Below are positions 5,613 through 46,975 of a DNA stretch of 64,000 nt, in pieces. The first letter of the stretch is position 1; each line of letters starts with the position of its first letter. This DNA is from an uncultured Roseibium sp. (lineage in GTDB: Bacteria; Pseudomonadota; Alphaproteobacteria; Rhizobiales; Stappiaceae). Location: positions 62,001 through 126,000 of the forward strand of contig NZ_CANMFD010000002.1 in NCBI RefSeq assembly GCF_947496995.1, given 5' to 3'. The notes beneath the pieces are model-generated. The model ran no database searches. It worked only from the letters and a program-made list of their open reading frames with translations, and was not told the origin of the DNA. The translations under genes were made by a program, and so were the position numbers.

Positions 5613-5630
5613 GAAGATTGTGCGGGGCTT
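5613..5630 (-). promoter_or_regulatory. candidate FtcR-type box J, upstream of secreted/PilZ pair
   Basis: Read on the - strand: AAGCCCC-GCAC-AATCTTC, two heptamers 11 bp apart. The first half fits well; the second has T for G at its third base. It is the weakest of the ten copies. 68 nt separate it from the start at 5544, and it is arranged back to back with box H. Confidence 0.5.
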
Positions 5631-5662
5631 GCGCCGGACGCGGCAGGAAACACCTCCCGGAT

Positions 5663-5680
5663 CAGCCTCGGGCAAGGTTG
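5663..5680 (+). promoter_or_regulatory. candidate FtcR-type box H, upstream of flgB operon
   Basis: CAGCCTC-GGGC-AAGGTTG, direct repeat with 11-bp period, 43 nt before the flgB start. It heads the flgB-flgC-fliE-flgG-flgA-flgI unit. Confidence 0.75.
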
Positions 5681-5723
5681 GCCGATTACTCCTTGACGCA
5701 ACATGAGCTGATAGGAGGTTTCG

Positions 5724-6104
5724 ATGGAGCCTGTGTTCCTGAACAAACTCGTCTCGCAAAACAATGACTGGCTCTCCATGCGCCAGGCGACCATCGCCGA
5801 GAACATGGCAAACGCCAACACACCCGGGTTCCACGCCAGGGACCTTGAGCCTTTCACGTCGGTGATAAGCGAAACCCGGCTTGCCATGACGGCGACCCAT
5901 GACAGCCATCTCGGTCAGTCGATGGAGGCTCCACGCCCCTCCGATGTGGAAAAGGAGGACAGCTGGACGGTGACCCACTCCGGCAACTCCGTCAGCATCG
6001 AGCAGGAACTGGTGAAGGCCGGTGAAGTCGCGCGCGATCATTCCTTGAACGCCAGTATCGCGAAGTCGTTTCACCGCATGTATCTCGCCTCGGTGAAATC
6101 ATAA
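5724..6104 (+). CDS. flgB: flagellar proximal rod protein FlgB
   Basis: A rod subunit that assembles in the periplasm on the MS-ring. 126 residues, normal length. It carries the rod/hook N-terminal signature (AENMANANTPGFHARD near residues 28-43), and the helical C-terminus ends with HRMYLASVKS. AGGAGG precedes the ATG at 5724. First gene after box H, followed at 11 bp by flgC, fliE and flgG in the standard rod order. Confidence 0.93.
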   Translation: MEPVFLNKLVSQNNDWLSMRQATIAENMANANTPGFHARDLEPFTSVISETRLAMTATHDSHLGQSMEAPRPSDVEKEDSWTVTHSGNSVSIEQELVKAGEVARDHSLNASIAKSFHRMYLASVKS

Positions 6105-6115
6105 GGAATTTGACC

Positions 6116-6532
6116 ATGTCCGATCCATTGTCCGCTTCTCTTCAGATTTCCGGTTCGGGGCTGCGGGCGCAGTCCGAGCGGTTGCGCGTCGTGTCCGAGA
6201 ACCTCGCAAACGCGCGGTCAACCGGCAAAACCGCCGGCGACGATCCCTATCGCCGCAAGACAATCACTTTTGAAAGCGAGTTCAGCCGCGCTCATCAGGC
6301 GCAGCTCGTCTCCGTCAAGGGGATCGGGGCCGACAAGGCACCGTTCACGGTGGAGTACGAGCCTGGCCATCCGGCTGCAGACGAGAATGGTTACGTGAAG
6401 ATGCCGAACGTCAACACGCTGCTGGAACTCGCTGACATGCGCGAGACCAACCGCTCCTACGAAGCCAATCTGAAAGTCATGACGCAGGCCCGCGAGATGG
6501 TTATGCGCAACATCGATCTCCTGAGGAACTGA
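6116..6532 (+). CDS. flgC: flagellar proximal rod protein FlgC
   Basis: Proximal rod subunit of 138 residues. The N-terminus has the rod/hook motif (SENLANARSTGKTAGDDPYRRK) and the C-terminus has the matching helix (NTLLELADMRETNRSYEAN). ATG at 6116 is preferred over an in-frame TTG at 6110 because AAGGAA (6103-6108) is spaced for 6116. It lies 11 bp after flgB and 2 bp before fliE. Confidence 0.94.
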   Translation: MSDPLSASLQISGSGLRAQSERLRVVSENLANARSTGKTAGDDPYRRKTITFESEFSRAHQAQLVSVKGIGADKAPFTVEYEPGHPAADENGYVKMPNVNTLLELADMRETNRSYEANLKVMTQAREMVMRNIDLLRN

Positions 6533-6534
6533 CC

Positions 6535-6873
6535 ATGATCAATGAAATTTCCGCGCTGACTTCTTCCTCGTCCACGGACGGGCTCCTCAAGGCGACGTCC
6601 ACCACCCGTTATTCGGCGAGCACTCCGGACATGGGGGGAACCGCCGAGGTTTCCGCACCCAGCTTTTCAGAAGCCGTGTCTCAGGTTTCCCAGGAAGCCA
6701 TCGACAAGATCAAGCATGGGGAAGCGGCGGCGATCGCCGGTGTTGACGGACAGGCGTCCGCACAGCAGGTCGTCGAGGCCGTTCTGGCCGCTGAATCCAC
6801 GCTGCAGACCGCCATCGCCATCCGCGACAAGGTCGTGAGCGCCTATCAGGAAATCAGCCGCATGTCGATCTGA
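6535..6873 (+). CDS. fliE: flagellar hook-basal body protein FliE
   Basis: Joins the MS-ring to the proximal rod and is needed before other rod proteins are exported. 112 residues. The C-terminal FliE region is clear: AQQVVEAVLAAESTLQTAIA, then RDKVVSAYQEISRMSI, the family's terminal motif. Start follows the flgC stop by 2 bp with GAGG upstream. Confidence 0.92.
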   Translation: MINEISALTSSSSTDGLLKATSTTRYSASTPDMGGTAEVSAPSFSEAVSQVSQEAIDKIKHGEAAAIAGVDGQASAQQVVEAVLAAESTLQTAIAIRDKVVSAYQEISRMSI

Positions 6874-6926
6874 CCCTGAGGGGGAAGACCATCTGAACAT
6901 AGCGGAACCCATCACGGAGACGAACC

Positions 6927-7715
6927 ATGAAAGCCCTAGCTATTGCCGCGACCGGCATGAGCGCCCAGCAGCTCAATGTCGAAGTTGTCGCGAACAACAT
7001 CGCCAATATGAACACCACCTCCTACAAGAGGTCCCAGGCGGAATTTTCGGACCTTCTGTATCAGGCCGAGCGCCTGCAGGGCGTGCCGAACCGTGGCGGT
7101 GAAGATCCGGTTCCCGAAGGTGCTCAGCTTGGACTGGGCGTCAGAACCGCCGGTATCCGCAAGCTGCATGTCCAGGGTTCGCTGACCAATACGGGCAACC
7201 AGTTCGATGTCGCTTTGGACGGACGGGGCTGGTTTGAGATTACCGGGCCTGACGACGAAACCCTCTATACCCGCGCCGGGTCCTTCAACAAGAACGCAGA
7301 GGGTCGCCTGGTGACCATCGACGGATATGCTGTCGAACCCGCGATCCTCGTGCCGGAAGAGACCATCGAGGTGGTCGTCAATGAATCCGGTGAGGTCTAC
7401 GCGAAGGTCGACGGTGAACTGGCGCCGCGCGAACTGGGACAGCTGACCCTGGCGAATTTCGCCAATGATGTCGGCCTCGAGCCGGTCGGCGGCAATCTGT
7501 TCCGCGAAACCGAAGCCTCCGGCACACCTGTGGCCGGTGTTCCGGGAGATCCCGGTTTCGGCGTGGTCCGCCAGGGCTACCTTGAAAGTTCGAACGTCGA
7601 TCCGGTGAAGGAAATCACGGCGCTCATCAACGCCCAGCGCGGATATGAAATGAACTCGAAGGTTATGAAGGCCGCCGATGAGATGGCCGGAACCGTAACC
7701 AACGGCATCCGCTAG
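6927..7715 (+). CDS. flgG: flagellar distal rod protein FlgG
   Basis: Forms the distal rod through the peptidoglycan and P/L rings. 262 residues, standard length. N-terminal [20 protein letters not shown] and TTSYKR motifs, a central FlgF/G domain (GRGWFEI, YTRAGSF), and a C-terminal [20 protein letters not shown] motif. The start has GGAGACGAACC upstream. It belongs to the flgB unit. Confidence 0.96.
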
Positions 7716-7832
7716 AGCGTTCGGCGTTCTCAGGAGCGCAGACAAGATGCTCGAGCACCTAATTATCGATCAGCGTTTTCGGCTTTGTGTGAGTTTGCAG
7801 GCAGACAGGCTGATCTGGAAAGGTCCCGGAAC

Positions 7833-8291
7833 ATGACCATGCTGATCAGAACCCTGTCGACGCTTCTGCTGGCGGTGTTTTTCGGCCAGGCGGCATTTGC
7901 CGCCAGTGTCGAACTCCCCGTGCCCCGGCAGACAATTCATCCCGGTTCGGAAATTTCGCATCAGGATCTGATCGAACGAAAGTTCCCGGGCCGCACCGCA
8001 CAGCAATTCGCCGTTTCAACCCATAGAGGCCAGCTGGTTGGCATGGTTGCCCGCCGGACGCTTCTGCCGGGTCAGCCTATTCCAATCAAGTCGGTTGAAA
8101 AGCAGGTCCTGGTGCGGCGCGGGGAACCGGCACGCCTGGTGTTTCAGGAGCAGGGGCTGGTCATCGTCATGCAGGTGGAAGCCTTGCAGAACGGCGGTGC
8201 GGGCAGTTTCGTCCGTGTGCGCAATGTCGATAGCGGCCAGGTCGTGTCCGGCCGGGTGCAGAATGACGGCACGATCCGGGTGGAGAACTGA
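7833..8291 (+). CDS. flgA: P-ring assembly chaperone FlgA
   Basis: Periplasmic chaperone for FlgI polymerisation. 152 residues from ATG 7833; a longer frame back to 7785 would put extra residues before the signal peptide and lacks a ribosome site. Signal segment LIRTLSTLLLAVFFGQAAFA, then a SAF-like domain (LPVPRQTIHPGSEIS, LLPGQPI) and the FlgA C-terminal beta region (GSFVRVRNVDSGQVVSGRV). It sits directly before flgI, 3 bp apart. Confidence 0.92.
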   Translation: MTMLIRTLSTLLLAVFFGQAAFAASVELPVPRQTIHPGSEISHQDLIERKFPGRTAQQFAVSTHRGQLVGMVARRTLLPGQPIPIKSVEKQVLVRRGEPARLVFQEQGLVIVMQVEALQNGGAGSFVRVRNVDSGQVVSGRVQNDGTIRVEN

Positions 8292-8294
8292 TAC

Positions 8295-9392
8295 ATGACC
8301 CGGCTTTTCATCATACTTCTTATCGTTCTTGCGGTCGGTCCGGCCTCCGCGATGGTCCGGATCAAGGATATTGCCAATCTGCAGGGTGTCCGTGACAACC
8401 AGCTTGTCGGCTACGGGCTGGTCATCGGCCTGAAGGGGTCCGGGGACAGCTTGCGCAATTCGCCGTTCACGGAACAGTCGCTCCAGTCGATGCTGGACAG
8501 TCTCGGCGTCAATGTGCGCGATGCGCGTCTGCGCACCCGGAATGTCGCCGCGGTTGTGGTCACTGCGGAAATGCCGTCCTTCATCGGCAAGGGGTCTTCC
8601 ATAGACGTCAGCGTGTCTTCTCTGGGAGATGCGACGTCTCTTGGCGGCGGGACGCTGGTCGCAACACCTCTGCTTGGAGCGGACGGTCAGATCTATGCGG
8701 TTGCGCAAGGTGCCGTTACGGTTTCCGGCTTCGCGGAGCTCGGGCAGGCGGAAAGCCTGACCCAGGGCTTTCCCACGGTTGGCCGCATTCCCAACGGCGG
8801 TCTCATTGAACGGGACCTGCCGGCGAAGTTCTCGCAAATTCCCGACCTCGCGCTTGAATTGACCAATCCGGATTTCAAGACGGCGGTCCGGATTGCCGAT
8901 GCCATAAACCTGTACTCCAAGGAGCGTTATGGCATCCGGGTGGCCAAGGAGCGCGACTATCGGACGGTGGATCTGACCCCGCCGAAAAACATGAGCGTCA
9001 CCCGGTTTATCTCGGAGATCGAGTCCATCCGCGTCCGGCCTGACCAGACGGCAAGGGTGGTGATCGACGAGCGCACAGGTACGGTAGTCATCGGCAAGGA
9101 CGTTCAGATCTCGACGGTCGCGATCACCCACGGCAACCTGACCGTAAGGATATCCGAAGCGCCTGAAGTATCGCAGCCAACACCGTTCTCGAACGGACAG
9201 ACCGTGGTGGTGCCTCGGACTTACGTCGATGCTCAGGAAACCGGTGGCCAGCTGGCGGTGGTCGGGGGGACGGATCTGCCGACGCTGGTGAGGGGCCTCA
9301 ACCGTATCGGCCTGCGTCCGACGGGTATCATTGCCATCCTCCAGGCCATCAAGACCGCCGGAGCCCTGCAGGCTGAACTGGTCATCCAGTAA
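8295..9392 (+). CDS. flgI: flagellar P-ring protein FlgI
   Basis: Builds the periplasmic P-ring around the rod. 365 residues. Signal peptide ends near ASA (about residue 19), and the mature start MVRIKDIANLQGVRDNQLVG and GYGLVIGLKGSGDS are diagnostic. The C-terminal VRGLNRIGLRPTGIIAILQA block is intact. Last gene of the first operon, with a strong terminator 33 bp after the stop. Confidence 0.97.
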   Translation: MTRLFIILLIVLAVGPASAMVRIKDIANLQGVRDNQLVGYGLVIGLKGSGDSLRNSPFTEQSLQSMLDSLGVNVRDARLRTRNVAAVVVTAEMPSFIGKGSSIDVSVSSLGDATSLGGGTLVATPLLGADGQIYAVAQGAVTVSGFAELGQAESLTQGFPTVGRIPNGGLIERDLPAKFSQIPDLALELTNPDFKTAVRIADAINLYSKERYGIRVAKERDYRTVDLTPPKNMSVTRFISEIESIRVRPDQTARVVIDERTGTVVIGKDVQISTVAITHGNLTVRISEAPEVSQPTPFSNGQTVVVPRTYVDAQETGGQLAVVGGTDLPTLVRGLNRIGLRPTGIIAILQAIKTAGALQAELVIQ

Positions 9393-9424
9393 CGCCTGTC
9401 AGACCCGCCACAACGAACTGCAGA

Positions 9425-9451
9425 AACGCCGCCACCAGAGCGGCGTTTTTT
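9425..9451 (+). terminator. rho-independent terminator of the flgB-flgI operon
   Basis: Perfect 8-bp stem (9425-9432/9440-9447), 7-nt loop, six Ts. It separates flgI from box A, which shows that motE starts a new unit. Confidence 0.9.
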
Positions 9452-9462
9452 GTGGGCACCGC

Positions 9463-9480
9463 CAGCCCCGCGCAAGCTCG
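9463..9480 (+). promoter_or_regulatory. candidate FtcR-type box A, upstream of motE operon
   Basis: CAGCCCC-GCGC-AAGCTCG, 11-bp direct repeat, directly after the flgI terminator and 50 nt before the chosen motE start. Confidence 0.75.
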
Positions 9481-9530
9481 ATCTGTGAATGTGCACTCAA
9501 ACCGGTTCAGCACAAAGGACGGCACGCCTT

Positions 9531-10067
9531 ATGCCTTTCACTTTGGACAACGGCCTGAAGCAGGGCCTTTTGGCAATCGCGGTGGTTTCAATCGCATTTT
9601 CGGGAAGTTCTGCCATGGCGCAGGAGCCCAGGGACAAACCCGAGATCGTGGACATTCTCATTCCACCTCCCGACAGCGAACTCTATTGCAAGAACATTGC
9701 AGAGGCGGCTTCGGATGCGCGCGTCAAATGGCAGACGTGGAAGATGATCAGCCTTGAGGCCAGCTTGCGGGATCGGATTGCCGAGCTGCAACGCAAGGAA
9801 CGGGAATTCGAAACTTGGGTCGAGCGCCGCGAAGAGCTGCTCGGTGAAGTCGAGGACCAGGTGGTGTCGATCATCGGCCGGATGCGTCCGGAAGCCGCTG
9901 CTGCGCAATTGGCGACCACGGACGAAGAAGCAGCCGTCGGAGTTCTTCTGAAGCTCAAGGCCCGCGTTGCCAGCAGCATTCTCGACGAAATGGATCCCGC
10001 GCGTGCGGCACAACTGACCCAGTCCATGATGGGTATCGCCAACCCGGACATACAACGGAGTTTTTGA
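9531..10067 (+). CDS. motE: MotE-family periplasmic motility chaperone
   Basis: In rhizobia MotE is a periplasmic chaperone for MotC; the gene lies between flgI and flgH as here. 178 residues. Signal peptide with AMA/Q cleavage near residue 24, a central coiled coil (about 70-105), and a C-terminal MgtE-N-like repeat (GRMRPEAAAAQLATTD, VASSILDEMDPARAAQLT). ATG 9531 is chosen over 9489 because AAGGA lies upstream and box A is then 50 nt away, like the other boxes. Its stop overlaps the flgH start (TGATG). Confidence 0.86.
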   Translation: MPFTLDNGLKQGLLAIAVVSIAFSGSSAMAQEPRDKPEIVDILIPPPDSELYCKNIAEAASDARVKWQTWKMISLEASLRDRIAELQRKEREFETWVERREELLGEVEDQVVSIIGRMRPEAAAAQLATTDEEAAVGVLLKLKARVASSILDEMDPARAAQLTQSMMGIANPDIQRSF

Positions 10068-10771: not shown

Positions 10772-10802
10772 TCCGCGTACAGGCAACAACGGGACACCCT
10801 TC

Positions 10803-12043: not shown

Positions 12044-12070
12044 AAAATCAGCCCTGAAACGACGAAATCA

Positions 12071-12099
12071 AAACGGAGCCAGTCGGCTCCGTTTTTTTT
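12071..12099 (+). terminator. rho-independent terminator of the motE-fliP operon
   Basis: Perfect 10-bp stem (12071-12080/12085-12094) with a 4-nt loop and eight Ts. Confidence 0.93.
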
Positions 12100-12195
12100 G
12101 TCGTTCGCGATTTTAAATCTCGCGATTATATCTTGAGAATTATCTGCCTTTATCACGTGAAAACGCGAAATAGATCAAATTGACCGGATAGGCGT

Positions 12196-12213
12196 AAGCT
12201 TCGCGCAAGATTG
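12196..12213 (+). promoter_or_regulatory. candidate FtcR-type box B, flaA promoter
   Basis: AAGCTTC-GCGC-AAGATTG, 11-bp direct repeat. Five bases later is CTAGTGT (12219-12225), a plausible -10, giving a start near 12232. 143 nt lie between box and start codon, far more than for most boxes; the extra length is a structured leader. Confidence 0.75.
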
Positions 12214-12230
12214 GGTCGCTAGTGTCCTTA

Positions 12231-12356
12231 TTACAGCAGGTTGAACCGCACCCGATTGAGGTTCAAAAGCATGACGCTGCTCCTGCTGTGCCGGTACCAG
12301 TCCGGCATGTCCCCCACCAATTCCAGTATCTACTGAAACATTGAAAGGGACATATC
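12231..12356 (+). promoter_or_regulatory. structured 5' leader of the flagellin mRNA
   Basis: From the predicted start, four perfect helices can form: P1 12233-12240/12282-12289 (8 bp), P2 12241-12247/12260-12266 (7 bp, stacked on P1), P3 12268-12271/12278-12281 (4 bp) and P4 12289-12294/12302-12307 (6 bp; shares base 12289 with P1). P1-P3 make a three-way junction. The stretch 12311-12350 is left open before the ribosome site AAAGGGA. FlbT is known in related bacteria to act on flagellin 5' leaders; that it acts here is inference. Upstream (12100-12195) is AT-rich with a near-perfect CGCGATTT inverted repeat and no gene. Confidence 0.55.
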
Positions 12357-13277
12357 ATGTCTAGCTTGTTGACCAACGCTTCCGCAATGACCGCGCTGCA
12401 GACCCTGCGGCACACCAGCTCCAACCTGGCTGAAACGCAGAACCGCATTTCTACCGGTTACCGTGTGGCCGGTGCGGAAGACAACGCAGCCTACTGGTCC
12501 ATCGCAACCACCATGCGTTCCGATAACATGGCACTTGGCGCCGTTGAAGACTCCCTGGGTCTCGGTGCCGCCACGGTCGACGTCATGTACACGGCAATGG
12601 ACAGCACCGTCGATGTCATGAACGAGATCAAGGCCAAGGTCGTTGCCGCCCGTACGCCGGGTGTTGACCGCACCAAGATCCAGTCGGACATCACCGAACT
12701 GCAGAACCAGCTGCGTTCGACCGCTGACTCGGCTGTGTTCAACGGTGAAAACTGGCTTGCAAGCGACGTAACCACCGTTACTTCGAAGGACATCGTCAGC
12801 TCCTTCACACGTGCAGGTGGCGCGATCGAAATCCAGGTTACGACCGTCGATATCACTGCCACGCAGCTCTATGATACGGCTGCCGGCACGACTGGTATCC
12901 TCGATCAGGACCGTGGTTTCGGTGGTCTGGCCAACGTCACCGGTTCCGGTGGTATTGCCGACTTCGATCTGTCCGCAGTGACTGACGCGGATACGGCAAG
13001 TATCGATGCTCTGGTTGACGGCATTGACGCGGCTCTGGGTGAAATCACCGACTCCGCAACTCTGCTCGGTTCTATCAAGAGCCGTGTCGATCTGCAGAAA
13101 GACTTCGTGTCTGCTCTGCGTGATGCCATCGACCGTGGTGTCGGCCAGCTTGTGGATGCCGACATGAACAAGGAATCGACTCGCCTCCAGGCTCTGCAGA
13201 CTCAGCAGCAGCTCGGTATCCAGGCTCTGTCGATCGCAAACCAGGGCAGCCAGAACATCCTGTCCCTGTTCCGTTAA
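12357..13277 (+). CDS. flaA: flagellin
   Basis: Filament subunit, 306 residues, exported by the flagellar type III system without a signal peptide. Conserved N-terminal D0/D1 helices (NASAMTALQTLRHTSSNLAE, NRISTGYRVAGAEDNAAYWS) and C-terminal D0 (GIQALSIANQGSQNILSLFR) flank a short variable region (about 130-220), typical of rhizobial flagellins, which need no FliD/FliS here. AAAGGGA precedes the ATG by 7 nt. It is a single-gene unit between box B and the terminator at 13303. This is the only flagellin in the window. Confidence 0.96.
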   Translation: MSSLLTNASAMTALQTLRHTSSNLAETQNRISTGYRVAGAEDNAAYWSIATTMRSDNMALGAVEDSLGLGAATVDVMYTAMDSTVDVMNEIKAKVVAARTPGVDRTKIQSDITELQNQLRSTADSAVFNGENWLASDVTTVTSKDIVSSFTRAGGAIEIQVTTVDITATQLYDTAAGTTGILDQDRGFGGLANVTGSGGIADFDLSAVTDADTASIDALVDGIDAALGEITDSATLLGSIKSRVDLQKDFVSALRDAIDRGVGQLVDADMNKESTRLQALQTQQQLGIQALSIANQGSQNILSLFR

Positions 13278-13302
13278 TCCACCAGGATCTGATGGAAAAG
13301 AG

Positions 13303-13333
13303 GACCGCGCCCTTCGGGGCGCGGTCTTTTTTT
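13303..13333 (+). terminator. rho-independent terminator of flaA
   Basis: Perfect 10-bp stem (13303-13312/13317-13326) closed by a TTCG tetraloop and followed by seven Ts, as expected for a highly expressed gene. Confidence 0.95.
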
Positions 13334-13351
13334 GTGCGCCGCCGCTCATGA

Positions 13352-13369
13352 CAGGCTCGCACAAGCTCC
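13352..13369 (+). promoter_or_regulatory. candidate FtcR-type box C, upstream of fliF
   Basis: CAGGCTC-GCAC-AAGCTCC, 11-bp direct repeat. A CATAGT hexamer at 13376-13381 could be the -10. It ends 50 nt before fliF. Confidence 0.75.
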
Positions 13370-13419
13370 AAATTCCATAGTGGTGCGAACAGACACGAAC
13401 GTGCATCAAGGGGTTCTGC

Positions 13420-20413: not shown

Positions 20414-20431
20414 CAGCTTCACGCAAGTTCT
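20414..20431 (+). promoter_or_regulatory. candidate FtcR-type box D, upstream of flgE operon
   Basis: CAGCTTC-ACGC-AAGTTCT, 11-bp direct repeat, 45 nt before flgE. Confidence 0.75.
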
Positions 20432-20476
20432 GTCGGTTTCACTGTGGTCAGTTGATCTGGAAACAGGAGACCTGTC

Positions 20477-26083: not shown

Positions 26084-26101
26084 AAGCTTCGCGCAAGCTT
26101 G
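26084..26101 (+). promoter_or_regulatory. candidate FtcR-type box E, upstream of flhA operon
   Basis: AAGCTTC-GCGC-AAGCTTG: the two heptamers differ only in the last base, the clearest direct repeat of the set. 43 nt before flhA. Confidence 0.78.
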
Positions 26102-26144
26102 AGCGGCGACCTTGCGGGTCTCCAAAACGTCTGCGAGGGCAGGA

Positions 26145-29415: not shown

Positions 29416-29433
29416 AAGCCTCCCGCAAGCTGC
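29416..29433 (+). promoter_or_regulatory. candidate FtcR-type box F, upstream of flgJ unit
   Basis: AAGCCTC-CCGC-AAGCTGC, 11-bp direct repeat; CTAGAAC at 29439-29445 is a plausible -10 at the same offset as in box B, giving a start near 29452. 111 nt separate box and start codon. Confidence 0.75.
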
Positions 29434-29451
29434 GACAGCTAGAACAGAGAC

Positions 29452-29518
29452 TGCAAACAAGGCCCGAAGTAAGCTTCCCTGCTTGCCTCGCCCTGTCACC
29501 CCACGGGCCTTGTTTGCA
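29452..29518 (+). promoter_or_regulatory. long hairpin at the 5' end of the flgJ-unit leader
   Basis: Perfect 15-bp inverted repeat: arms 29452-29466 and 29504-29518 (core CAAACAAGGCCCG/CGGGCCTTGTTTG), with a second 6-bp hairpin inside the loop (29469-29474/29481-29486). The 5' arm begins at the start predicted from box F, so the mRNA would open with this hairpin. It ends 26 nt before the flgJ start. Could be an mRNA stabiliser, a translation control element or a protein-binding site. Confidence 0.6.
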
Positions 29519-29544
29519 ACCAGTTTTGACCAAGGAGCCGTCCA

Positions 29545-30899: not shown

Positions 30900-30951
30900 G
30901 GGGAGGGCGACGACGATCCTTAGTCACTTCCGGGCGCATCAGTTGCAGGGA

Positions 30952-31420: not shown

Positions 31421-32860
31421 TCAGTCGTGTGATCGCAAGAGGGAGGTGGCCTGGCGCAGATCCTGGATAAAGTGTGACTTAGCTTGCCGGCGCTGAGTTT
31501 CCTCCCTCAAACGCAGCAGATAGGAAGGGTGGTAGGTGATCAGCACCGGTGTCCCGTCTTCTGCCTTTTCCACCGTTCCCCGGCGCTGCAACAGACTTTC
31601 ACCCGAGCCGGTCAGGGAGAGTGTCGCGCTTGAGCCCATGGCGAGAAGGAGTTTTGGCTTCACTGCCCTGCGCTCGAAATCGAGCCACCAGCGGCAGGCG
31701 ACCACTTCTCCGGCATTCGGCTTGTTGTGCAAACGGCGTTTTCCGCGCGGTGTGAACTTGAAGTGTTTGACGGCGTTGGTCAGGAAGGCGCAAGTCCGGT
31801 CCAGTCCTGCTTCTTCGGCGCAGCTGTCGAACAATTGCCCGGCGGGACCGACAAACGGCCTGCCTGTCAGGTCTTCTATATCGCCAGGTTGCTCGCCGAC
31901 GATCATCAGGTCCGCATCCGATGGGCCTTCTCCCGGAACCGCCTGGGTGGCGCAACTGCCAATCGTGCACCGCCGACAAGCATCCAGAGCCGGTTTCAAG
32001 GTGTCGAGACTCAAATTGCCGTCATCGGGAGGCGCGGGTCGCATGGGACGGACTTTGCCCGAAAATGCGGACGGTTCCGTAGGCATCGCTAGTTGCATTG
32101 CCAGTGCCCGCTCCGGCGCGGTGCGGATCATGCCGGGTATGAGAGATGCCTCGGGAAGGTTCTTCCAGTATTTGCGGGGCATTTCAGACGTCATGGCCGA
32201 GACCATCAGGCGGGCGGGATTGAAAATATTCGCGAAATAGGTACGCCAGAGGTCCTCGGTCGCATCTTCGGGAGGCGGAGAGAAATTTCTCGTTTCCTCA
32301 TAGGACAGCGTTCCATTCTCGAACCGCGCGGTCAGTGACGGGGTGGCGATAATCCAGTCCATGTCACCGAAGCGGCTGGCGAAGAAAGGACAGGCGGCTT
32401 CAGCGATGGGATGATCGGGCTCGAACCAGGCAGCAAAGGCGCGCCTCGCTGCATCCGGGGAACCGACTTCGCGAAACCGCACAAACGCGTGCATCTTGTG
32501 AATGTCGCGCCGGACGGCCTTTTCCTGGCCAAGGAGGCAATGCAGCGGCTTGTCGGAGCGGTCTCCCCAGCGCAGCCTCCCGCTCGCCAGTCGCGCAACG
32601 ATGTCGTAGGCGCGGGCAAATCGTTCCGGATCCTTGTGGTGGAGTGCGGTCTCGATGGACGTGAGCGCCGATTTGGTCAGCGTGAATGGCGTTTTACAGT
32701 CTGCATCGGCAATCTTTTCGGGCGCGGCGAAGAGGTCGGCGTCTGGTTCTCCGGTCTGCCAGACCAGGTTTTCGCCGGGTACCCCGGCCTGAAGCAGCCG
32801 CCGCGCCTGCCGGCGCCAGGCTGCCACGGTGCCGATGCGCGGCAGGCACACCATCTGCAT
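31421..32860 (-). CDS. UdgX-family uracil-DNA binding protein fused to a DUF4130 domain
   Basis: 479 residues. The N-terminal half (about 1-270) is the DUF4130/TIGR03915 type found with the DNA-repair radical SAM family. The C-terminal half is a family 4-like uracil-DNA glycosylase: Fe-S cysteines CRRCTIGSC near 295, motif A GEQPGD (322-327), and the extra loop KRRLH (374-378). That loop, KRRIH in studied UdgX, holds the histidine that makes a covalent bond with uracil-containing DNA; here Ile is Leu. Overlaps the radical SAM gene by one base (TGATG). Confidence 0.88.
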   Translation of the reverse strand: MQMVCLPRIGTVAAWRRQARRLLQAGVPGENLVWQTGEPDADLFAAPEKIADADCKTPFTLTKSALTSIETALHHKDPERFARAYDIVARLASGRLRWGDRSDKPLHCLLGQEKAVRRDIHKMHAFVRFREVGSPDAARRAFAAWFEPDHPIAEAACPFFASRFGDMDWIIATPSLTARFENGTLSYEETRNFSPPPEDATEDLWRTYFANIFNPARLMVSAMTSEMPRKYWKNLPEASLIPGMIRTAPERALAMQLAMPTEPSAFSGKVRPMRPAPPDDGNLSLDTLKPALDACRRCTIGSCATQAVPGEGPSDADLMIVGEQPGDIEDLTGRPFVGPAGQLFDSCAEEAGLDRTCAFLTNAVKHFKFTPRGKRRLHNKPNAGEVVACRWWLDFERRAVKPKLLLAMGSSATLSLTGSGESLLQRRGTVEKAEDGTPVLITYHPSYLLRLREETQRRQAKSHFIQDLRQATSLLRSHD

Positions 32861-34089
32861 CAGAACAGGCTCATCTGTTCCGGCGCAGCGGTGAACCGGG
32901 CCCGCAGATTGGCGTCATCGGGCAAATGGCCCGGTGTCCAGCCGGGAAGGATGATGAAGGGTTTTGCGTGTTTCAGCACGCAGCCGATCGAGACGAGGTG
33001 CTCGTAGCGGATGGAGTGGTGACGCCGGGCGTTCAGGATCCGCTGGACGGAGCGGGTGCCGAAACCCGGGACGCGCAGCAGCAATTCCTTCGACGCGCGG
33101 TTCACATCCACGGGAAAATGGCCGCGGTGCGCCAGGGCCCAGGCAAGTTTCGGATCGACGTTCAGATCCAGCATGCCGCCTGCCGGGGCGATCTCCTCCA
33201 CCTCGAAGCCGTAGAACCGCATCAGCCAGTCGGCCTGATAGAGACGATGCTCGCGCATCAGGGGAGGACGTTTCAAGGGCAGCAGCCGCGAGGCGTCGGG
33301 AATGGGCGAAAAGGCGGAATAATAAACCCGGCCGAGTTTGTAGGACGAATAGAGCAGGGAGGCGTTGGAGAGGATATCCCCGTCCGAAGCCGTGTCAGCG
33401 CCGACGATCATCTGGGTCGATTGCCCGGCAGGTGCGAAACGGCCCGGTCTCTTGCCCCGATAGGACTTTTCTTTCGCCGCGTCGCGCCGGGTGCGGACAT
33501 CGGCCATTGCGCGCCGGATGGACAAGGCGGATTTTTCCGGCGCCAGGCGCGTCAACGCGTTTTCGGTCGGCAGTTCCACGTTGATCGACAGGCGATCTGC
33601 CCATTTTCCAGCTTCCTCGATCAGCTCGGGGCTGGCATCGGGAATGGTCTTGAGATGAATGTAGCCGCGGAAATTCTCCCGCTCACGCAAGGTGCGCACG
33701 ATGTTGACCATGTCGGCCATCGTGCCGTCCGGGGAGCGGATGATGCCGGAGGACAGGAACAGGCCTTCGATATAGTTCCGGCGATAGAACTCGACGGTCA
33801 GCTTGACCACTTCTTCAACTGTGAATCGCGCCCGCTCGACCCGGCTCGACGCCCGGTTGACGCAATAGGCGCAGTCGTAGATGCAGAAATTCGTCATCAG
33901 GATCTTGAGAAGCGAAATGCAGCGCCCGTCCGGAGCATAGGCGTGACAAATCCCGCTGCCCCCGGACGATCCGAGCCCCTTGCCGTCCCTGGAGGAGCGT
34001 CGCTCGCCGCCGGAAGACGCGCAGGACGCGTCATATTTTGCCGCATCCGCCAGGATCGCCAGTTTGTCTGAAAGTGATCTTTTTGCCAT
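32860..34089 (-). CDS. putative DNA modification/repair radical SAM protein
   Basis: 409 residues from ATG 34089 (34170 would add an unlikely extension). Radical SAM cysteines CIYDCAYC (about 67-74) bind the 4Fe-4S cluster; the C-terminus has a helix-hairpin-helix-like segment (LLLRVPGFGTRSVQRILNAR) for DNA contact. Matches the family that occurs with DUF4130/UdgX partners and has been proposed to act on damaged or modified bases. The substrate is unknown. First gene of the two-gene repair operon. Confidence 0.87.
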   Translation of the reverse strand: MAKRSLSDKLAILADAAKYDASCASSGGERRSSRDGKGLGSSGGSGICHAYAPDGRCISLLKILMTNFCIYDCAYCVNRASSRVERARFTVEEVVKLTVEFYRRNYIEGLFLSSGIIRSPDGTMADMVNIVRTLRERENFRGYIHLKTIPDASPELIEEAGKWADRLSINVELPTENALTRLAPEKSALSIRRAMADVRTRRDAAKEKSYRGKRPGRFAPAGQSTQMIVGADTASDGDILSNASLLYSSYKLGRVYYSAFSPIPDASRLLPLKRPPLMREHRLYQADWLMRFYGFEVEEIAPAGGMLDLNVDPKLAWALAHRGHFPVDVNRASKELLLRVPGFGTRSVQRILNARRHHSIRYEHLVSIGCVLKHAKPFIILPGWTPGHLPDDANLRARFTAAPEQMSLF

Positions 34090-34290
34090 TCGTTCTTGAT
34101 ATGTTCTTTTTGGCGTTTTGGTCAAGAAGGCGGCAGGAGAAGGTGAGGCGTGATTTGTGAATGGCTTCAAGTCTCGTTGTTCTGTGGCAACGAGAAACCC
34201 GGTGCAATTTCCGAGTTGGTCGGTTCGGCCGGTGAGCCGGTGCTCGCGGATTTGATGCGTTGAAGGACACAGGTATGAGACAGGTTTTGC

Positions 34291-34737: not shown

Positions 34738-34963
34738 GAGCGGCGCCTCCAATACGATCGGTCCAGCCTGGCACAGTCCGGATCGCGAGTTCAAGGCTCA
34801 TGCGCAGTTGGAGGATCTGGTGCGCGCCGTGCGCCGATACGTTGCGGCTACGGCCGGTCGACCCGGATTGCTTCACCGATAAACCCAAAATAAAGCGCCC
34901 TCTCGCTCCAGCCATAATGAGGTTTTATCCGGTGCGATGGACTAACCCTGACCACGACTTGAT

Positions 34964-36040
34964 CTATACTGCAGTTCTTGTTTGGCGTGAGTACACATAA
35001 CAGATAATTTCTGCAACCGCTCTATAGAATTCCGGCGGTATCATTTGTTCGATTTCTGTCGCTGCATATAGAGATCGCGCAAGTTGTACGTCCTCGATCA
35101 CGGGGATGTTGTTGCTTTCCGCGATCTCGCGGATCTTCAGCGCGATCAGATCCTGACCCTTGGCGATCACTATCGGCGCCGGACTCTGATCACCGTCATA
35201 GCGCAGGGCGACGGCGAAGTGGGTCGGGTTGGCAATGACCAGAGTTGCCTGCGGCACGCCGGACATCATGCGGTTGCGGGCCCTGTCGCGCGCCAGCGAG
35301 CGCTGGCGGGCCTTGACGATCGGGTCGCCTTCCGCCTGCTTGTGTTCGTCCTTGATTTCCTGCTTGCTCATGCGCAGGTTCTTGCGCCAGTGCGAGCGCG
35401 ACCACAGGACATCGACGGTCACCAGCAGGATTGTCACGACGCAAACGCCGGCGATCAGCCGCATGGAAATCTGCAGGATCGTTTCCGGCAACGCGCTGGG
35501 GTCGGTAAACATGGCGTTGATCAGTTCCACTTCATTTGCCCGGAACTGGCCAAACACGATGGCGCTGACCGTGGTGAACTTGAAAACCGCCTTGAGAAAT
35601 TCAACAAGGCCCTGTGCCCCGAAAATCCGCTTCCAGCCTTTCGAGGGCGAGAGTTTCGAGAAGTCCGGCTTGATGCGGTGAAAGACGAGGTTCGGACTGT
35701 TCTGCAGGAATGCCGAAGCGAGACCTGCGACTGACAACAGCGCAATGACCGGAGCAAGGAATATGGCGGTTTCGATTGAAACCGCATGAGAGAGCAGCAA
35801 TGCGTCTGCGCTGTTTCCAAGTCTCACACCTCCCGAGAGATCCAGGAGATGGGTCAGCTTCACGACGAGCTGACGGGCTCCCGATGTCACCACGAAACCT
35901 CCGATCAGCAGGGCGGCAATGAAAGTGGCAAGGACCGGTGCTTCTCTCGAAACCGGAGTGTTGCCTTTCTCGATTGCGTCCCGAACCTTCTTCTCGGTCG
36001 GTTCTTCTGTTTTTGAATCCTTGTCTGTCTCGTCCGACAT
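34964..36040 (-). CDS. flhB: flagellar export switch protein FlhB
   Basis: Export-gate component whose cytoplasmic domain cleaves itself to switch substrate class. 358 residues: N-terminal KTEEPTEKKVRDAIEKGN, four membrane helices, and the autocleavage motif NPTH at residues 271-274 (cut between Asn and Pro). Last gene of the motA operon, 51 bp after fliG. Confidence 0.96.
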   Translation of the reverse strand: MSDETDKDSKTEEPTEKKVRDAIEKGNTPVSREAPVLATFIAALLIGGFVVTSGARQLVVKLTHLLDLSGGVRLGNSADALLLSHAVSIETAIFLAPVIALLSVAGLASAFLQNSPNLVFHRIKPDFSKLSPSKGWKRIFGAQGLVEFLKAVFKFTTVSAIVFGQFRANEVELINAMFTDPSALPETILQISMRLIAGVCVVTILLVTVDVLWSRSHWRKNLRMSKQEIKDEHKQAEGDPIVKARQRSLARDRARNRMMSGVPQATLVIANPTHFAVALRYDGDQSPAPIVIAKGQDLIALKIREIAESNNIPVIEDVQLARSLYAATEIEQMIPPEFYRAVAEIICYVYSRQTRTAV

Positions 36041-36091
36041 TCAGCCAATCGTCTCCTGGCCCGCGGTACCGCGTTTCCGGTCCGGCAGCGG

Positions 36092-37159
36092 TCAGGCGAA
36101 AAATGCGCCGTCGTCCTGCTTCGGGTTCAATTCAATTTCGCCTCTGCCGGCCATCTCCAGGGCCAGATTGGTGATCGCGCTGCGGGCATCGAGAACGTCT
36201 CGCTGCGCTGCCGGTTCTCCGGCCGCCAGTTCGTGCTCGGCGATGCGCCGCGCACGAGAGGTCAGGGACGAAAGGATGACTTCGCGGAACTGCGCGCTGG
36301 TTCCTTTCAGCGCCAGTACGATCCGGTCCGTCGGAATCTGATCGAATATTGCCATCCGGGTCCGGGCGTTGAGGTTGGTGATGTCGTCGAAGGTGAAGAG
36401 CAGACCCTTGAGAAGCTCCGCGGTCTTCGGTTTGACAACATTGAGATTGTCCAGCGCGTCTTCCATGTGCTCGCGGTCCATCTTGTTGAGGATGTCCGCC
36501 ATGCGGGCATGGGAATCTGCCTCCAGGGTTCCGGACAGGTTGAGCATGAAATCCTCGTGCATGGTCTTTTCCACATCGCGCATGATTTCCGGAACGACTG
36601 CCTTGATCGACAGCATCCTGCGGACAAGCTGGTTGCGCGTCTCGCCGTTAACCTGGCCGAGAACCTTGGCGGCCGCCGCCGGTTTGATCTTTGTGAGGAT
36701 CAGAGCCGCAGTCTGCGGATGCTCCTTGAGGAGATAATTTGCAAAGACGGTTTCGGACACCGTGGTCAGCCGGTCCCATATGGAGCGGTTCGAATTACCG
36801 AGTACATCGGACATGATGTCCGAGAGCTGATCATCCGGAAGGATGCCCTCCAGCATCTTTTCGACTTCATTGGCGGAACCGTAGAGGGTCGTGCCGTGGG
36901 AAAACTGTTCGATGAATTCCTCGGCCAGCAGATCGAGTTCTTCCGAGGCCACCGTTCCCAGCTGCGCTGCGGAAACGGTGATCATGCGGATTTCTTCCTG
37001 GTCGAAATGCTGCAGCAGCTTCTGGGAGCTGGTTTTGCCCAGCGACAGGAGAAGCGCCGCCACCCGCTGCACGCCGTTCAGACGGCGCGCGGGCGGAGTG
37101 GGAGGCTGGGAGTAACTCGCGGATTGCGCCGCGGCCGCGGCATTGGCAGTGCTCGACAT
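36092..37159 (-). CDS. fliG: flagellar motor switch protein FliG
   Basis: C-ring protein that joins the MS-ring and receives torque from MotA. 355 residues from ATG 37159 (a GTG at 37165 is also possible). Family blocks VQRVAALLLSLGKTSSQKLL, EHPQTAALILTKIKPAAAAKVL, and the torque-helix region (DRIVLALKGTSAQFREVILS, SLTSRARRIAEHEL). Between fliN and flhB in the motA operon. Confidence 0.96.
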   Translation of the reverse strand: MSSTANAAAAAQSASYSQPPTPPARRLNGVQRVAALLLSLGKTSSQKLLQHFDQEEIRMITVSAAQLGTVASEELDLLAEEFIEQFSHGTTLYGSANEVEKMLEGILPDDQLSDIMSDVLGNSNRSIWDRLTTVSETVFANYLLKEHPQTAALILTKIKPAAAAKVLGQVNGETRNQLVRRMLSIKAVVPEIMRDVEKTMHEDFMLNLSGTLEADSHARMADILNKMDREHMEDALDNLNVVKPKTAELLKGLLFTFDDITNLNARTRMAIFDQIPTDRIVLALKGTSAQFREVILSSLTSRARRIAEHELAAGEPAAQRDVLDARSAITNLALEMAGRGEIELNPKQDDGAFFA

Positions 37160-37210
37160 TGTCACATGTTCCTGAGGAGACCTGGGGCTACGGACCGGTT
37201 AGCTTCTGGA

Positions 37211-37603
37211 TCAGATGTCCAGACCGCCGTTCTGCGCGCTGATGATTTCCGTGAGAGAGACACCGAAACGGGAATTGTCGTCTTCGACGACCACCACTTC
37301 ACCGCGGGCGATCACACGGCCGTTCACGACGATATCGATCGGTTCACCGACACGGTGATTGAGCGGGATGACCGCACCGCGGCCCAGCTTCAGAAGGTTG
37401 GAGACCAGCATTGTCGCCGACCCGAGGACAACCTGAATGTTCACCGGAATACCCAGGATCGTGTCCAGATTCTTGTCGTCCCCGATGGTGCCGGGATTGC
37501 TGTCCTTGGACGGCGCTTCAACCTTGGCGAAATTCGCGGCATCGGCCGGCTTCGTCTTCACACCCGCGTCCGCGGAAACATGATCAATAACAGTGTCGGA
37601 CAT
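37211..37603 (-). CDS. fliN: flagellar motor switch protein FliN
   Basis: C-ring subunit. 130 residues with a disordered N-terminus and a C-terminal SpoA domain (LDTILGIPVNIQVVLGSATM, LKLGRGAVIPLNHRVGEPID, VVVVEDDNSRFGVSLTEII). Starts inside the stop of the preceding gene (TAATG). Confidence 0.96.
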   Translation of the reverse strand: MSDTVIDHVSADAGVKTKPADAANFAKVEAPSKDSNPGTIGDDKNLDTILGIPVNIQVVLGSATMLVSNLLKLGRGAVIPLNHRVGEPIDIVVNGRVIARGEVVVVEDDNSRFGVSLTEIISAQNGGLDI

Positions 37604-38178
37604 TACATTTTATCCTTCTGGTTCATGGAAACGGTGCGGAACGGGCTTCCGGACGGGTTGTCGATCCGGTGAATGCGTGCCGGGACCGGTTTTGGCGCTT
37701 CTCCACGATGAATTGATGCCGGCTCCTTCTGGGATCTGCCGCTGGTCAACACACCCGCGTGCTGCGAAGGAGCAGTCTGTCCGTCCGAATCCGCGAAGAT
37801 CTCCAGGTCATCCCTGGACGGGGTAAGCCGGTTGGACGTCTCGAACAGGGCCGTTGCCTTGGAAAGCTCCTTGAGTTCCGCGCGCAGAACCGTTTGCTGG
37901 CGCTTGGCTTCCCGTGTCAGTCCGTCAATTTCGGCGATGAGCTCGCGCGCATCGTCCATGCGGTTGCCGAGTGCATTGAGGATCTGCGCGCTCTTGACGT
38001 TGATCTCCTGGATGGAGACCTCGATCCCGTCCAGAGCCAGTACGGTCTGGTCGAATATGCGCTTGTAATCCGAATGATATGTTCCGAGGCGCCGCAGCTC
38101 CCGGTGCATGGCCAGCATCCGCACCGTCGTCGCGACAAGCGCGATCAGGAGGACGCCATCAACGATTGCGGAGATCAT
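37603..38178 (-). CDS. membrane-anchored coiled-coil protein between fliM and fliN (DUF6468-like)
   Basis: 191 residues: N-terminal membrane helix (ISAIVDGVLLIALVATTVRM), then a long coiled coil (about 35-110) and a low-complexity Ser/Pro-rich tail. Resembles the DUF6468-type protein found next to fliM/fliN in alphaproteobacteria, which may relate to flagellar placement factor PflI; this is from memory of family context and not certain. Overlaps fliM by 20 bp and fliN by 1 bp, so it is firmly part of the C-ring operon. Confidence 0.75.
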   Translation of the reverse strand: MISAIVDGVLLIALVATTVRMLAMHRELRRLGTYHSDYKRIFDQTVLALDGIEVSIQEINVKSAQILNALGNRMDDARELIAEIDGLTREAKRQQTVLRAELKELSKATALFETSNRLTPSRDDLEIFADSDGQTAPSQHAGVLTSGRSQKEPASIHRGEAPKPVPARIHRIDNPSGSPFRTVSMNQKDKM

Positions 38179-39118
38179 CGAAAAGATCCTTTTCTTCCTC
38201 GTGAATGAGTTCTTCGACCTGCAGCGTATAGGAGCCGTCCAGCTGTCCGAGCTGGCAGGTGAAGATCGGCTGATCGTTACAGGAGAGAGTGACCGGGCTG
38301 CGGGCCGTTGCCTGAAGCTCGATGGTCTGGCCTACCCTCAGGGCCGACAGATCACCGAGCGACATTTCACGCTCTTCCAGGATGGCCTCCAGCCTGACTT
38401 CGGTGCGCTGGATTTCGTTGTGGAAGTGCTGCGTCCACTGTTTGTCACGTCCCGACATTTCACCGGAAAGGACCTGGGAGAGACGCTGGCGGAGCGGATT
38501 GAGGGTTGAATGCGGCATGACCACGAACACCTCGCCGCCACGGCCGATTGCCTGCTGCAACAGCCGTGCGACCACGGCAGGGTTGTTGCGGCGGCCGACG
38601 ACCGCGAAGTCCATGCGGCTTTCCACCCGCTCGATCCTGAGCGTTGTCTCGGCGATCGGCGCGAAGGATTCGGCCAGGGCTTTCGAAGCCACCTCGAACA
38701 TGGTGCGCGCGATGCGCGTTTCGATGTTGGAGAACGGACGTTCGTCGTCGATTGGCGGTTCTGTGCCGTCGGCTCCGAAAAGCACATCCACCAGCGTGAA
38801 GATGAAATCGCGGTCGAAACCGACGAGCACCCGGGCGTCCCATTCGGGGGAATAGAGCACGGCCACAAGCGCGTTGGACTCGAACTCGTCCAGAATGTCG
38901 CCGATGCGGTTGTTTTCTACGTAGCTCACCGAGATATAGGAAGGTGAGGGGGACTTCTGCCGCATGGCGTCCGCCATCAAACGTGCCATGCGGTCGAAAA
39001 CTACCGGAAGCATCGGCAGACGGTCGACGGAGATCCCCGCTGCATCGAGCAGGCGGTCGGCGATCATGGCCCGTTCGGAACTGGAACCGCCGGAATTTGC
39101 TGTAGCTGCCTCGATCAT
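38159..39118 (-). CDS. fliM: flagellar motor switch protein FliM
   Basis: C-ring subunit that binds CheY-P in chemotactic bacteria. 319 residues: FliM middle domain (VLVGFDRDFIFTLVDVLFGA, FSNIETRIARTMFEVASKAL) and C-terminal SpoA domain (LGDLSALRVGQTIELQATA). The N-terminal CheY-binding motif is short or absent, as in many rhizobia. Lies 3 bp after motA. Confidence 0.93.
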   Translation of the reverse strand: MIEAATANSGGSSSERAMIADRLLDAAGISVDRLPMLPVVFDRMARLMADAMRQKSPSPSYISVSYVENNRIGDILDEFESNALVAVLYSPEWDARVLVGFDRDFIFTLVDVLFGADGTEPPIDDERPFSNIETRIARTMFEVASKALAESFAPIAETTLRIERVESRMDFAVVGRRNNPAVVARLLQQAIGRGGEVFVVMPHSTLNPLRQRLSQVLSGEMSGRDKQWTQHFHNEIQRTEVRLEAILEEREMSLGDLSALRVGQTIELQATARSPVTLSCNDQPIFTCQLGQLDGSYTLQVEELIHEEEKDLFDDLRNR

Positions 39119-39121
39119 GAC

Positions 39122-40015
39122 TTATGCCGCTCCCTGAAGGTCCTGGACGTTGTCGCCACCGGACCCCGCGCTCATGGTCTCGTTTTCAACTTCGTCGATG
39201 GTTGGACGGTCGTGGTCGGAAATGGTCTTGCGGCCATGTTCCAGAGCGATCTGCGGATCGGCGCCGTTCATGAAGGCGAGCAGGGTCTGCTTGACGACGA
39301 TGTAGGGCCGCAGCCGCGACTCCCGGACGTTCTTGATCTTCACGGCCAGCGGTCCGAAGAGAGAATAGGAAAAGAAGATCCCGACGAACGTGCCCACCAG
39401 CGCGGCGCCGATCAGGCTGCCGAGCAATTGAGGCGACTGGTCGATCGCGCCCATTGCCTTGATAACGCCGAGCACGGCCGCGATGATCCCGATCGCCGGT
39501 AAGGCGTCGGCGACGCTGCTCATGGCGTGGAAGGGCTTCATCTGGTCGCGGTGGATCGTCTGCAGCTCCTCGTCCATTAGTGCCTCTATCTCATGGGCGC
39601 GGGCATTGCCGACGATGATCAGCCGGAAGTAGTCGCAGATGAAGGTCGTCAGGTTGGCGTTGCGCAGAACCGTCGGATATTTCTGAAAGATCTGCGAAGT
39701 GTTCGGGTCTTCGATATGCGGTTCGACCTGATTGCGTCCCTTGGCGCGCAGCTCGCGCATCAGACCGTAAAGCAGCGCCAGAACGTCCAGGTATTCGCGT
39801 TTGTTGGGGACGGCGTTGCGCAGCGCATCGGAGATCGCAAACACCGTTCCCCGAATGGTTTTCATCGGGTTGGCGACAACGAATGCACCAACGGCGACAC
39901 CCAGAATGATAAGGAGTTCCCAGGGTTGCCAAAGGACGGAGACCTTGCCGCCGAGTGCGGCAAATCCACCGATAAGGGAAGCACCCGCAATGAACAGGCC
40001 AATAAGAATAGTCAC
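39122..40015 (-). CDS. motA: flagellar stator protein MotA
   Basis: Proton-channel stator subunit, partner of MotB (15704-17224, far away in block 1). 297 residues, four membrane helices; conserved SSVADALPAIGIIAAVLGVI and GSLIGAALVGTFVGIFFSYS, with the cytoplasmic charged loop between helices 2 and 3. Starts at GTG 40015 with GGGAG 7 nt upstream. First gene of the - strand operon behind box I. Confidence 0.95.
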   Translation of the reverse strand: MTILIGLFIAGASLIGGFAALGGKVSVLWQPWELLIILGVAVGAFVVANPMKTIRGTVFAISDALRNAVPNKREYLDVLALLYGLMRELRAKGRNQVEPHIEDPNTSQIFQKYPTVLRNANLTTFICDYFRLIIVGNARAHEIEALMDEELQTIHRDQMKPFHAMSSVADALPAIGIIAAVLGVIKAMGAIDQSPQLLGSLIGAALVGTFVGIFFSYSLFGPLAVKIKNVRESRLRPYIVVKQTLLAFMNGADPQIALEHGRKTISDHDRPTIDEVENETMSAGSGGDNVQDLQGAA

Positions 40016-40071
40016 CTAATAGCTCCCGAACTGGTGAGAAAATCGACTGTGTGGGGAGGACGCTAGGAGGT

Positions 40072-40089
40072 GAGACTTGTCCGAAGCTG
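40072..40089 (-). promoter_or_regulatory. candidate FtcR-type box I, upstream of motA operon
   Basis: Read on the - strand: CAGCTTC-GGAC-AAGTCTC, then ACCTC and CTAGCGT, a -10-like hexamer at the same offset as in boxes B and F. 56 nt before the motA GTG. Faces away from box G. Confidence 0.75.
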
Positions 40090-40133
40090 ACGCGGCAGCA
40101 TTTTGGCCCGTATCCGCGCATCTGGACCGCAGT

Positions 40134-40151
40134 CAGCCTGGCGTAAGCTCT
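40134..40151 (+). promoter_or_regulatory. candidate FtcR-type box G, upstream of DUF1217-flgF operon
   Basis: CAGCCTG-GCGT-AAGCTCT, 11-bp direct repeat, 49 nt before the chosen start at 40201. Forms a divergent pair with box I, 44 bp apart. Confidence 0.72.
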
Positions 40152-46974: not shown

Positions 46975-46975
46975 A

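Follow-up and report, generated by a model that had tools for sequence, protein, structure and literature searches.

A tandem repeat in the −35 place of flagellar promoters, a probable operator for FtcR/Rem-type regulators in Roseibium and across Hyphomicrobiales

The systems described so far that come closest to the one reported here are the flagellar regulators FtcR, Rem and LafR and a promoter motif from a methanotroph. For Brucella FtcR, chromatin immunoprecipitation (ChIP) yielded the motif TGTGGGCA, drawn from 118 of 363 peaks; electrophoretic mobility shift assays were made on ftcR and betI fragments, and binding of FtcR upstream of fliF is restated in the accessible part of the same paper (PMC9456535). 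Rem activates class II flagellar genes, LafR needs no phosphorylation, and Azorhizobium and Bradyrhizobium diazoefficiens possess a rem homologue without visNR, according to the accessible part of another study (PMC8429497). In Methylosinus sporium 5, a 'novel' flagellar Motif 3 lies at most 40 nucleotides (nt) upstream of mapped starts at flgB, motA, flgF, fliF and flgE; it is an orphan, printed in the available text with neither a regulator nor a wider distribution (PMC12403871). Here we describe an element that heads the flagellar transcription units of an uncultured Roseibium, in a 64,000-nt stretch (the window; positions 62001–126000 of contig C2, 5.46-Mb genome; 59.1% G+C). The element reads as an 11-bp direct repeat, approximately GNMAGCYTCGCRCAAGCTT, followed at a fixed distance by a predicted TANNNT −10. 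Very probably its ten sites form one promoter class, in which an operator for FtcR/Rem stands for the −35.

An earlier note on this DNA had listed ten 18-bp copies of the box, one at the head of each flagellar unit, seven of them ending 43–56 nt before a start codon and several followed by a CTAGNNT-like hexamer. Every coordinate and strand proved correct. With units defined by strand and gaps, each of the ten has one box, and seven gaps do fall within 43–56 nt, the remaining three being 68 (5613), 143 (12196) and 111 nt (29416). The hexamer corresponds to the −10: box position 26 is A in nine of the ten sites, and position 30 is T in seven. The boxes are as follows, with the gap between box and start.

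5613–5630, minus strand: box heading the 5011–5544 gene (minus strand) and the PilZ-like gene 4634–5014 (minus strand); −10 CATGCA at 5601–5606, final T absent; gap 68 nt.
5663–5680, plus strand: box of the flgB-flgC-fliE-flgG-flgA-flgI unit; −10 TACTCC at 5687–5692; gap 43 nt.
9463–9480, plus strand: box of the motE-flgH-fliL-fliP unit; −10 GAATGT at 9487–9492; start re-assigned to 9531; gap 50 nt.
12196–12213, plus strand: box of the flagellin gene (12357–13277); −10 TAGTGT at 12220–12225; predicted leader 125 nt; gap 143 nt.
13352–13369, plus strand: box of the fliF unit (fliF to fliK); −10 CATAGT at 13376–13381; gap 50 nt.
20414–20431, plus strand: box of the flgE-flgK-flgL-flaF-flbT-flgD unit; −10 TTCACT at 20438–20443; gap 45 nt.
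26084–26101, plus strand: box of the flhA-fliR unit; −10 GACCTT at 26108–26113; start ATG 26145; gap 43 nt.
29416–29433, plus strand: box of the flgJ-like unit; −10 TAGAAC at 29440–29445; predicted leader 93 nt; gap 111 nt.
40072–40089, minus strand: box of the motA-fliM-fliN-fliG-flhB unit; −10 TAGCGT at 40060–40065; gap 56 nt.
40134–40151, plus strand: box of the DUF1217-flgF-fliI unit; −10 GAAAAT at 40158–40163; start re-assigned to 40201; gap 49 nt.

A matrix built from the ten sites scored them about nine bits above all else in the window, at 19.6–26.4 versus a best non-member score of 10.7 over some 128,000 window positions. Each box, when held out of the matrix, still scored above all non-member positions. 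A model of the same ten sites (R1) gave 14 matches in the whole genome at an expectation value (E) of 10 or less, including all ten window boxes.

The flanks were read on sites gathered by the 18-bp box alone, 141 from 19 clusters of FtcR-positive genomes of the genus (score at least 13) and 94 from distant named loci (L172–L242; score at least 13.5). In both sets the conserved stretch begins with a G one base 5′ of position 1 and ends at position 18. The −10 columns, which were not used for site collection, show T at 25, A at 26 (0.87 in genus sites, 0.76 in distant sites) and T at 30 (0.76 and 0.73). Genus sites prefer A at 37 and 38, where transcription is expected to start, and distant sites do so at 37 only, weakly. 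With a predicted start set at 37, the box spans −38 to −19. On this register it occupies the −35 place, at fixed spacing to a housekeeping-type −10 and without a separate −35. Self-correlation of the profile peaked at offset 11 (0.84 genus, 0.87 distant; at most 0.29 at other offsets from 6 to 14), bearing out the direct repeat of one helical turn that had been proposed. Read as an inverted repeat it reached up to 0.45, which we attribute to its AAGCTT core. The repeat, its conservation and its joint presence with FtcR favour an operator of the OmpR-family type with FtcR as its reader.

Within the genus, the distances from box to start in the 19 FtcR-positive clusters, which count one more than the gaps listed above, are nearly constant: fliF 48–51, flgE 46–49, flgB 43–49, motA 54–57, flhA 46–48 (81 in G015) and flagellin 131–146. 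The 141 sites belong to the DUF1217 (20), motA (18), flhA (15), flgE (15), fliF (14), flagellin (14), flgB (13), motE (12) and flgJ (11) units and to the 5011 gene (9); not every unit was scored in every genome, and the clusters of G003, G004, G007 and G008 contain only 13 of the genes.

Beyond the genus we used 80 named loci retrieved via FtcR (Sinorhizobium meliloti is outside this set). At a score of at least 13.5 the ten-site matrix matched 64 of them once or more, not always at promoters, and 16 not at all. Expectation maximisation, run without the box on 113 regions upstream of flgE, fliF, flhA, flgB, motA and flgJ in other Hyphomicrobiales (L172–L242), returned ccAGCtTCgCGCAAGcTT with a site fraction of 0.90. 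A genus-only matrix, at score 4, placed a box before 100 of the 113 unit-heading genes of these distant loci (flgE 31/32, fliF 23/24, flhA 15/24, flgB 10/10, motA 8/8, flgJ 13/15) versus 11 of 225 internal genes, and 50 of 51 distant loci had at least one box. On the same 113 regions the opposite strand gave 11 hits, the reversed matrix 3, and 200 column-permuted matrices a mean of 2.8 and a maximum of 12. These controls, with the internal genes, replaced a random-tile null that was dropped because real sites had contaminated it (50 of the 113 regions and 1 of the 225 internal genes passed its 99% threshold of 16.7). Among eleven re-inspected loci, five that had been empty earlier (L208, L209, L232, L238, L240) have weaker boxes at flgE or fliF, and the fliF of an Ochrobactrum also has a box. 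The near-fixed genus distances and the excess at unit-heading genes came out as the earlier note's reading predicts for orthologues and flagellar promoters. In G003, G004, G007 and G008 (clusters L098–L105) the homologue of the 37603 gene contains a box-like site, 118 nt before fliN and accompanied by a −10-like TATTCA; coding conservation or an internal promoter may explain it.

Presence of the box followed that of FtcR. Among 37 genomes of the genus, FtcR was found at E ≤ 1e-40 in 22 and not in 15, the latter having only paralogues about 30–35% identical (best E 5e-19). All 15 FtcR-negative genomes carry a second type of FliF, 31–36% identical to the window FliF, and the six FtcR-positive genus genomes tested carry both types. 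At score 13, a box was found upstream of the FtcR-type fliF in 6/6 genus genomes and in 2/3 FtcR-positive genomes of other families, and upstream of the second-type fliF in 0/21; one match, in L137, was not upstream of the gene. Model R2, made from 50 genus sites and run on whole genomes at E ≤ 0.1, gave 3–10 matches in each of the 22 FtcR-positive genus genomes versus 0–1 in each of the 15 FtcR-negative ones. The FtcR-negative matches numbered nine, and the four examined were a single coding stretch (L265–L268). In the Roseibium genome itself (G000) R2 also gave nine matches: seven window boxes, one coding match and a site before a PilZ-like gene.

Some matches were not retained. An exact one at G000:C2:732763 was rejected as a target, lying within coding sequence, presumably of DNA topoisomerase I, in the same stretch as L265–L268. 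Matches outside the cluster in other genomes (L307, L310, L312, L313) were set aside as lying inside long open reading frames (ORFs); two more such outside matches are in L305 and L311. Matches of the Roseibium genome outside the window also fall at C1:97682 and C1:1297252. As a side observation, another, divergent flagellar system without the box (FliF about 30–36% identical) exists in the genus, as seen in G003, G004, G007, G008, G017, G036 and the 15 FtcR-negative genomes, and some species carry both systems.

The candidate regulator is encoded in the window.

44135–44938, plus strand: ftcR, OmpR-family regulator; Pfam Trans_reg_C 60.4 bits (cut-off 26.2), Response_reg 26.4 bits, under the cut-off of 30.2.

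Its domain make-up, its flagellar linkage and 45–96% identity to aligned relatives confirmed the FtcR/Rem type assigned to it before. The gene lies next to fliI, and many of the 80 named loci have flagellar genes around ftcR, some none. Solved structures listed as its sequence relatives are OmpR/PhoB-type response regulators. An AlphaFold model has both domains visible (mean predicted local distance difference test score 79.6, predicted template modelling score 0.52), with strand 3 ending at residue 54, so that residue 55 presumably sits where response regulators normally carry the acceptor Asp. Residue 55 is Gly in 81/81 FtcR sequences, which fits the reported activity of LafR without phosphorylation, and residue 50 is Asp in 11/81. 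Residues E192, H194, S196, L198 and R199 of the recognition helix, which hardly varies, and R215, G218 and Y219 of the wing are identical in all 81. No box was found in the region upstream of ftcR itself (43837–44134, 298 nt, 32% G+C), and scores above 4 upstream of ftcR were reached in 2/23 relatives (L073 6.7, L075 4.2) and 4/51 named loci; probably FtcR is controlled from above, and not through its own box. Behind ftcR, on the same strand (45304–49222), follow a histidine kinase gene and a GGDEF-EAL response-regulator gene, with no box ahead of either. One genome, G022 (listed contamination 5%), has two FtcR genes (C249, C668), 81% and 76% identical to the window FtcR.

One predicted new target is unlinked to the cluster. 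A box at G000:C4:83846 precedes a frame of 101 amino acids (gene at G000:C4:83928) by 64 nt, and a paralogue of this gene, with 37% identity over 4703–4948, stands in the window.

4634–5014, minus strand: PilZ-like gene, second gene behind the 5613 (minus strand) box; Pfam PilZ 17.5 bits, under the cut-off of 22.5.

Relatives of the 101-amino-acid protein (either copy) were found in 21/21 FtcR-positive genus genomes, 1/14 FtcR-negative ones (partial, G025) and 1/4 FtcR-positive genomes of other families, G022 and G030 being excluded. In 14 of the 21 a box above the 99% null of 7.9 lies at most 400 nt upstream (in G027 via the second copy); nine of these exceed the null maximum of 16.5, six of the nine being the R2 matches that led to the gene. 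The upstream region held no box in G001, G003, G004, G007, G008 and G034, and one under threshold in G016. Members from G017 and G024 pass the Pfam PilZ cut-off, and those from G000, G033 and G036 have no match. A further candidate target, a conserved 89-amino-acid ORF at G000:C1:1745442 (site C1:1745382, upstream region L273), was rejected: the site is a different tandem element, GAAAGCTT-N4-AAAGCTT, present in genus-mates both with FtcR and lacking it. Among 30 genomes examined, that element was also kept in FtcR-negative G025 and G006, decayed in G005, G010 and G019, and unseen in FtcR-positive G015, G017 and G036.

Methylosinus sp. Sm6 has a box at flgB, motA, flgF, fliF and flgE (scores 15.2–22.1, 40–61 nt before starts), and none before fliI, fliM, fliN, fliG, flhB, flgC, fliE, flgG, flgA, flgI or flgK. 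An extra strong match (22.7), on the minus strand at L377:1151, is without a known target. Motif 3 is probably the same element as our box, judging by gene set and position. The earlier note knew of no published box of this form. Two motifs in print correct this: one for FtcR, TGTGGGCA, which is unlike the box (PMC9456535), and Motif 3, which from the accessible text is very likely the same element (PMC12403871). No tandem GCAAGCTT operator for FtcR, Rem or LafR was found in our searches of open-access literature. The octamer TGTGGGCA was absent from all 113 distant upstream regions and from all 141 genus sites with their flanks. In the window it occurs twice, at 5340 and at 9451, the latter just ahead of the 9463 box.

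Around the boxes, Pfam named rod proteins, FliE, FlgG, FlgI, FlgH, FliL, FliP, flagellin, FliF, a MotB-type protein, FliK, FlgE, FlgK, an FlgL-type flagellin domain, FlaF, FlbT, FlgD, FlhA, FliR, a rod-binding (FlgJ-like) protein, FlhB, FliG, FliN, FliM, MotA, DUF1217, an FlgF-type protein and an FliI-type ATPase; the labels flgB, flgC, motE, motC, flgA, flgF and fliI are putative, assigned by gene order. A radical-SAM gene (32860–34170, minus strand) lies within the cluster. The mechanical ORF starts of motE (9489) and the DUF1217 gene (40156) lie 8 and 4 nt past the box, upstream of the predicted transcript start; the in-frame ATGs at 9531 and 40201 fit better. Predicted leaders are long for flagellin (12232–12356, 125 nt) and the flgJ-like gene (29452–29544, 93 nt) versus 25–50 nt for the other eight units. 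The flagellin leader would leave room for control of flagellin mRNA, with FlbT perhaps as its agent.

Several observations weigh against a box read by FtcR at all these promoters. FtcR and the flagellum type are inherited together; their joint presence cannot single FtcR out from the rest of the system or tell it from other regulators of the same flagellum. The named loci were themselves retrieved via FtcR, R2 was trained on sites from FtcR-positive genomes, and only seven of the ten window boxes reach E 0.1 with it. The published Brucella ChIP motif differs from the box, flhA fits less well (15/24 distant loci), and a box is missing at fliF in L126 (FtcR-positive, from another family) and at the flagellin gene in Methylosinus sp. 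Sm6. In one alignment with paralogues the acceptor position fell on D50 and not on G55; under either alignment no acceptor Asp is conserved. Finally, enrichment of the loose half-site pattern within the window is weak (74 matches versus 58 expected, 3 of 100 shuffles being as high), and the consensus with up to two mismatches has 114 matches genome-wide versus 77 for the reversed control, so that most pattern matches outside the cluster are due to chance. Such figures would suit ten copies that were a chance or selection artefact of a G+C-rich window, a reading to which the leave-one-out result, the emergence of the motif in other genera without prompting, and the controls by internal genes, strand and matrix leave next to no probability.

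We see a small chance that the reader of the box is a different regulator tied to this flagellum, be it VisN/VisR, CtrA or another OmpR-family paralogue, with FtcR upstream of that regulator. The Roseibium genome does encode ten other, weaker matches to FtcR. VisNR is of the LuxR type, which counts against VisN/VisR as binder. So does a Bradyrhizobium genome (L236) with a box at fliF, Bradyrhizobium diazoefficiens being reported without visNR in the accessible part of that study (PMC8429497). FtcR-negative genus-mates retain OmpR-type paralogues about 30% identical but not boxes. For CtrA, TTAA-N7-TTAA half-sites are absent from the box logo, and in M. sporium its motif is separate from Motif 3 in the text available (PMC12403871). 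A special flagellar sigma factor recognising the box directly would account for its place over −35 and its fixed distance from the −10, and is nonetheless very unlikely: the −10 still has the A and T typical of housekeeping promoters, and we know of no −35 in the form of a 19-bp direct repeat with an 11-bp period.

Under the operator reading, two head-to-tail DNA-binding domains of FtcR/Rem would sit on GCAAGCTT half-sites with a period of 11 bp, from about −38 to −19, and the TANNNT −10 downstream would be read by the housekeeping sigma factor. Bound FtcR would do the job of the missing −35 and recruit RNA polymerase, and rod, hook, motor and export genes, in this genus also flagellin and the PilZ-like gene, would be turned on together. 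We infer three things: FtcR binds the box, acts there as an activator, and needs no phosphorylation to do so. The sequences themselves show the repeat, its register, the predicted −10, near-fixed spacing, conservation throughout Hyphomicrobiales and joint presence with FtcR. On these grounds we regard the box as a new operator of a known type, order-wide, with one predicted unlinked new target. A wider proposal seems to us evenly balanced: that an ancestral tandem GCAAGCTT operator heads the FtcR-type flagellum across Hyphomicrobiales, forming in the genus a single tier for structural, motor, flagellin and PilZ-like genes, with FtcR phosphorylation-free and the Brucella motif not the main operator. 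Given the Sm6 gene, control of flagellin by the box does not extend to all relatives, and this lowered our estimate for the wider proposal.

With its operator defined, the regulon of a widespread flagellar master regulator could be predicted from sequence in rhizobia, methanotrophs, marine Roseibium-type bacteria and Brucella relatives. The orphan methanotroph motif would gain a regulator, doubt falls on the published motif, and point changes can serve to test the class II step of the VisNR-Rem cascade. The unlinked target suggests that cyclic di-GMP control may belong to the same switch, the PilZ function being putative.

Compared with known systems, the 44135 protein belongs to the same family of OmpR-type flagellar master regulators as FtcR of Brucella, Rem of Sinorhizobium and LafR of Bradyrhizobium, and its predicted targets are the class II genes described for Rem; the motif in print for this group, that of Brucella FtcR, is the octamer and not the tandem box. 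PhoB (pho box) and CtrA promoters likewise place OmpR-family repeats over −35, and there the repeats make a housekeeping promoter activator-dependent. Unlike these, the element described here has a different half-site, a putative regulator without a conserved acceptor Asp, and targets among flagellar and PilZ-like genes.

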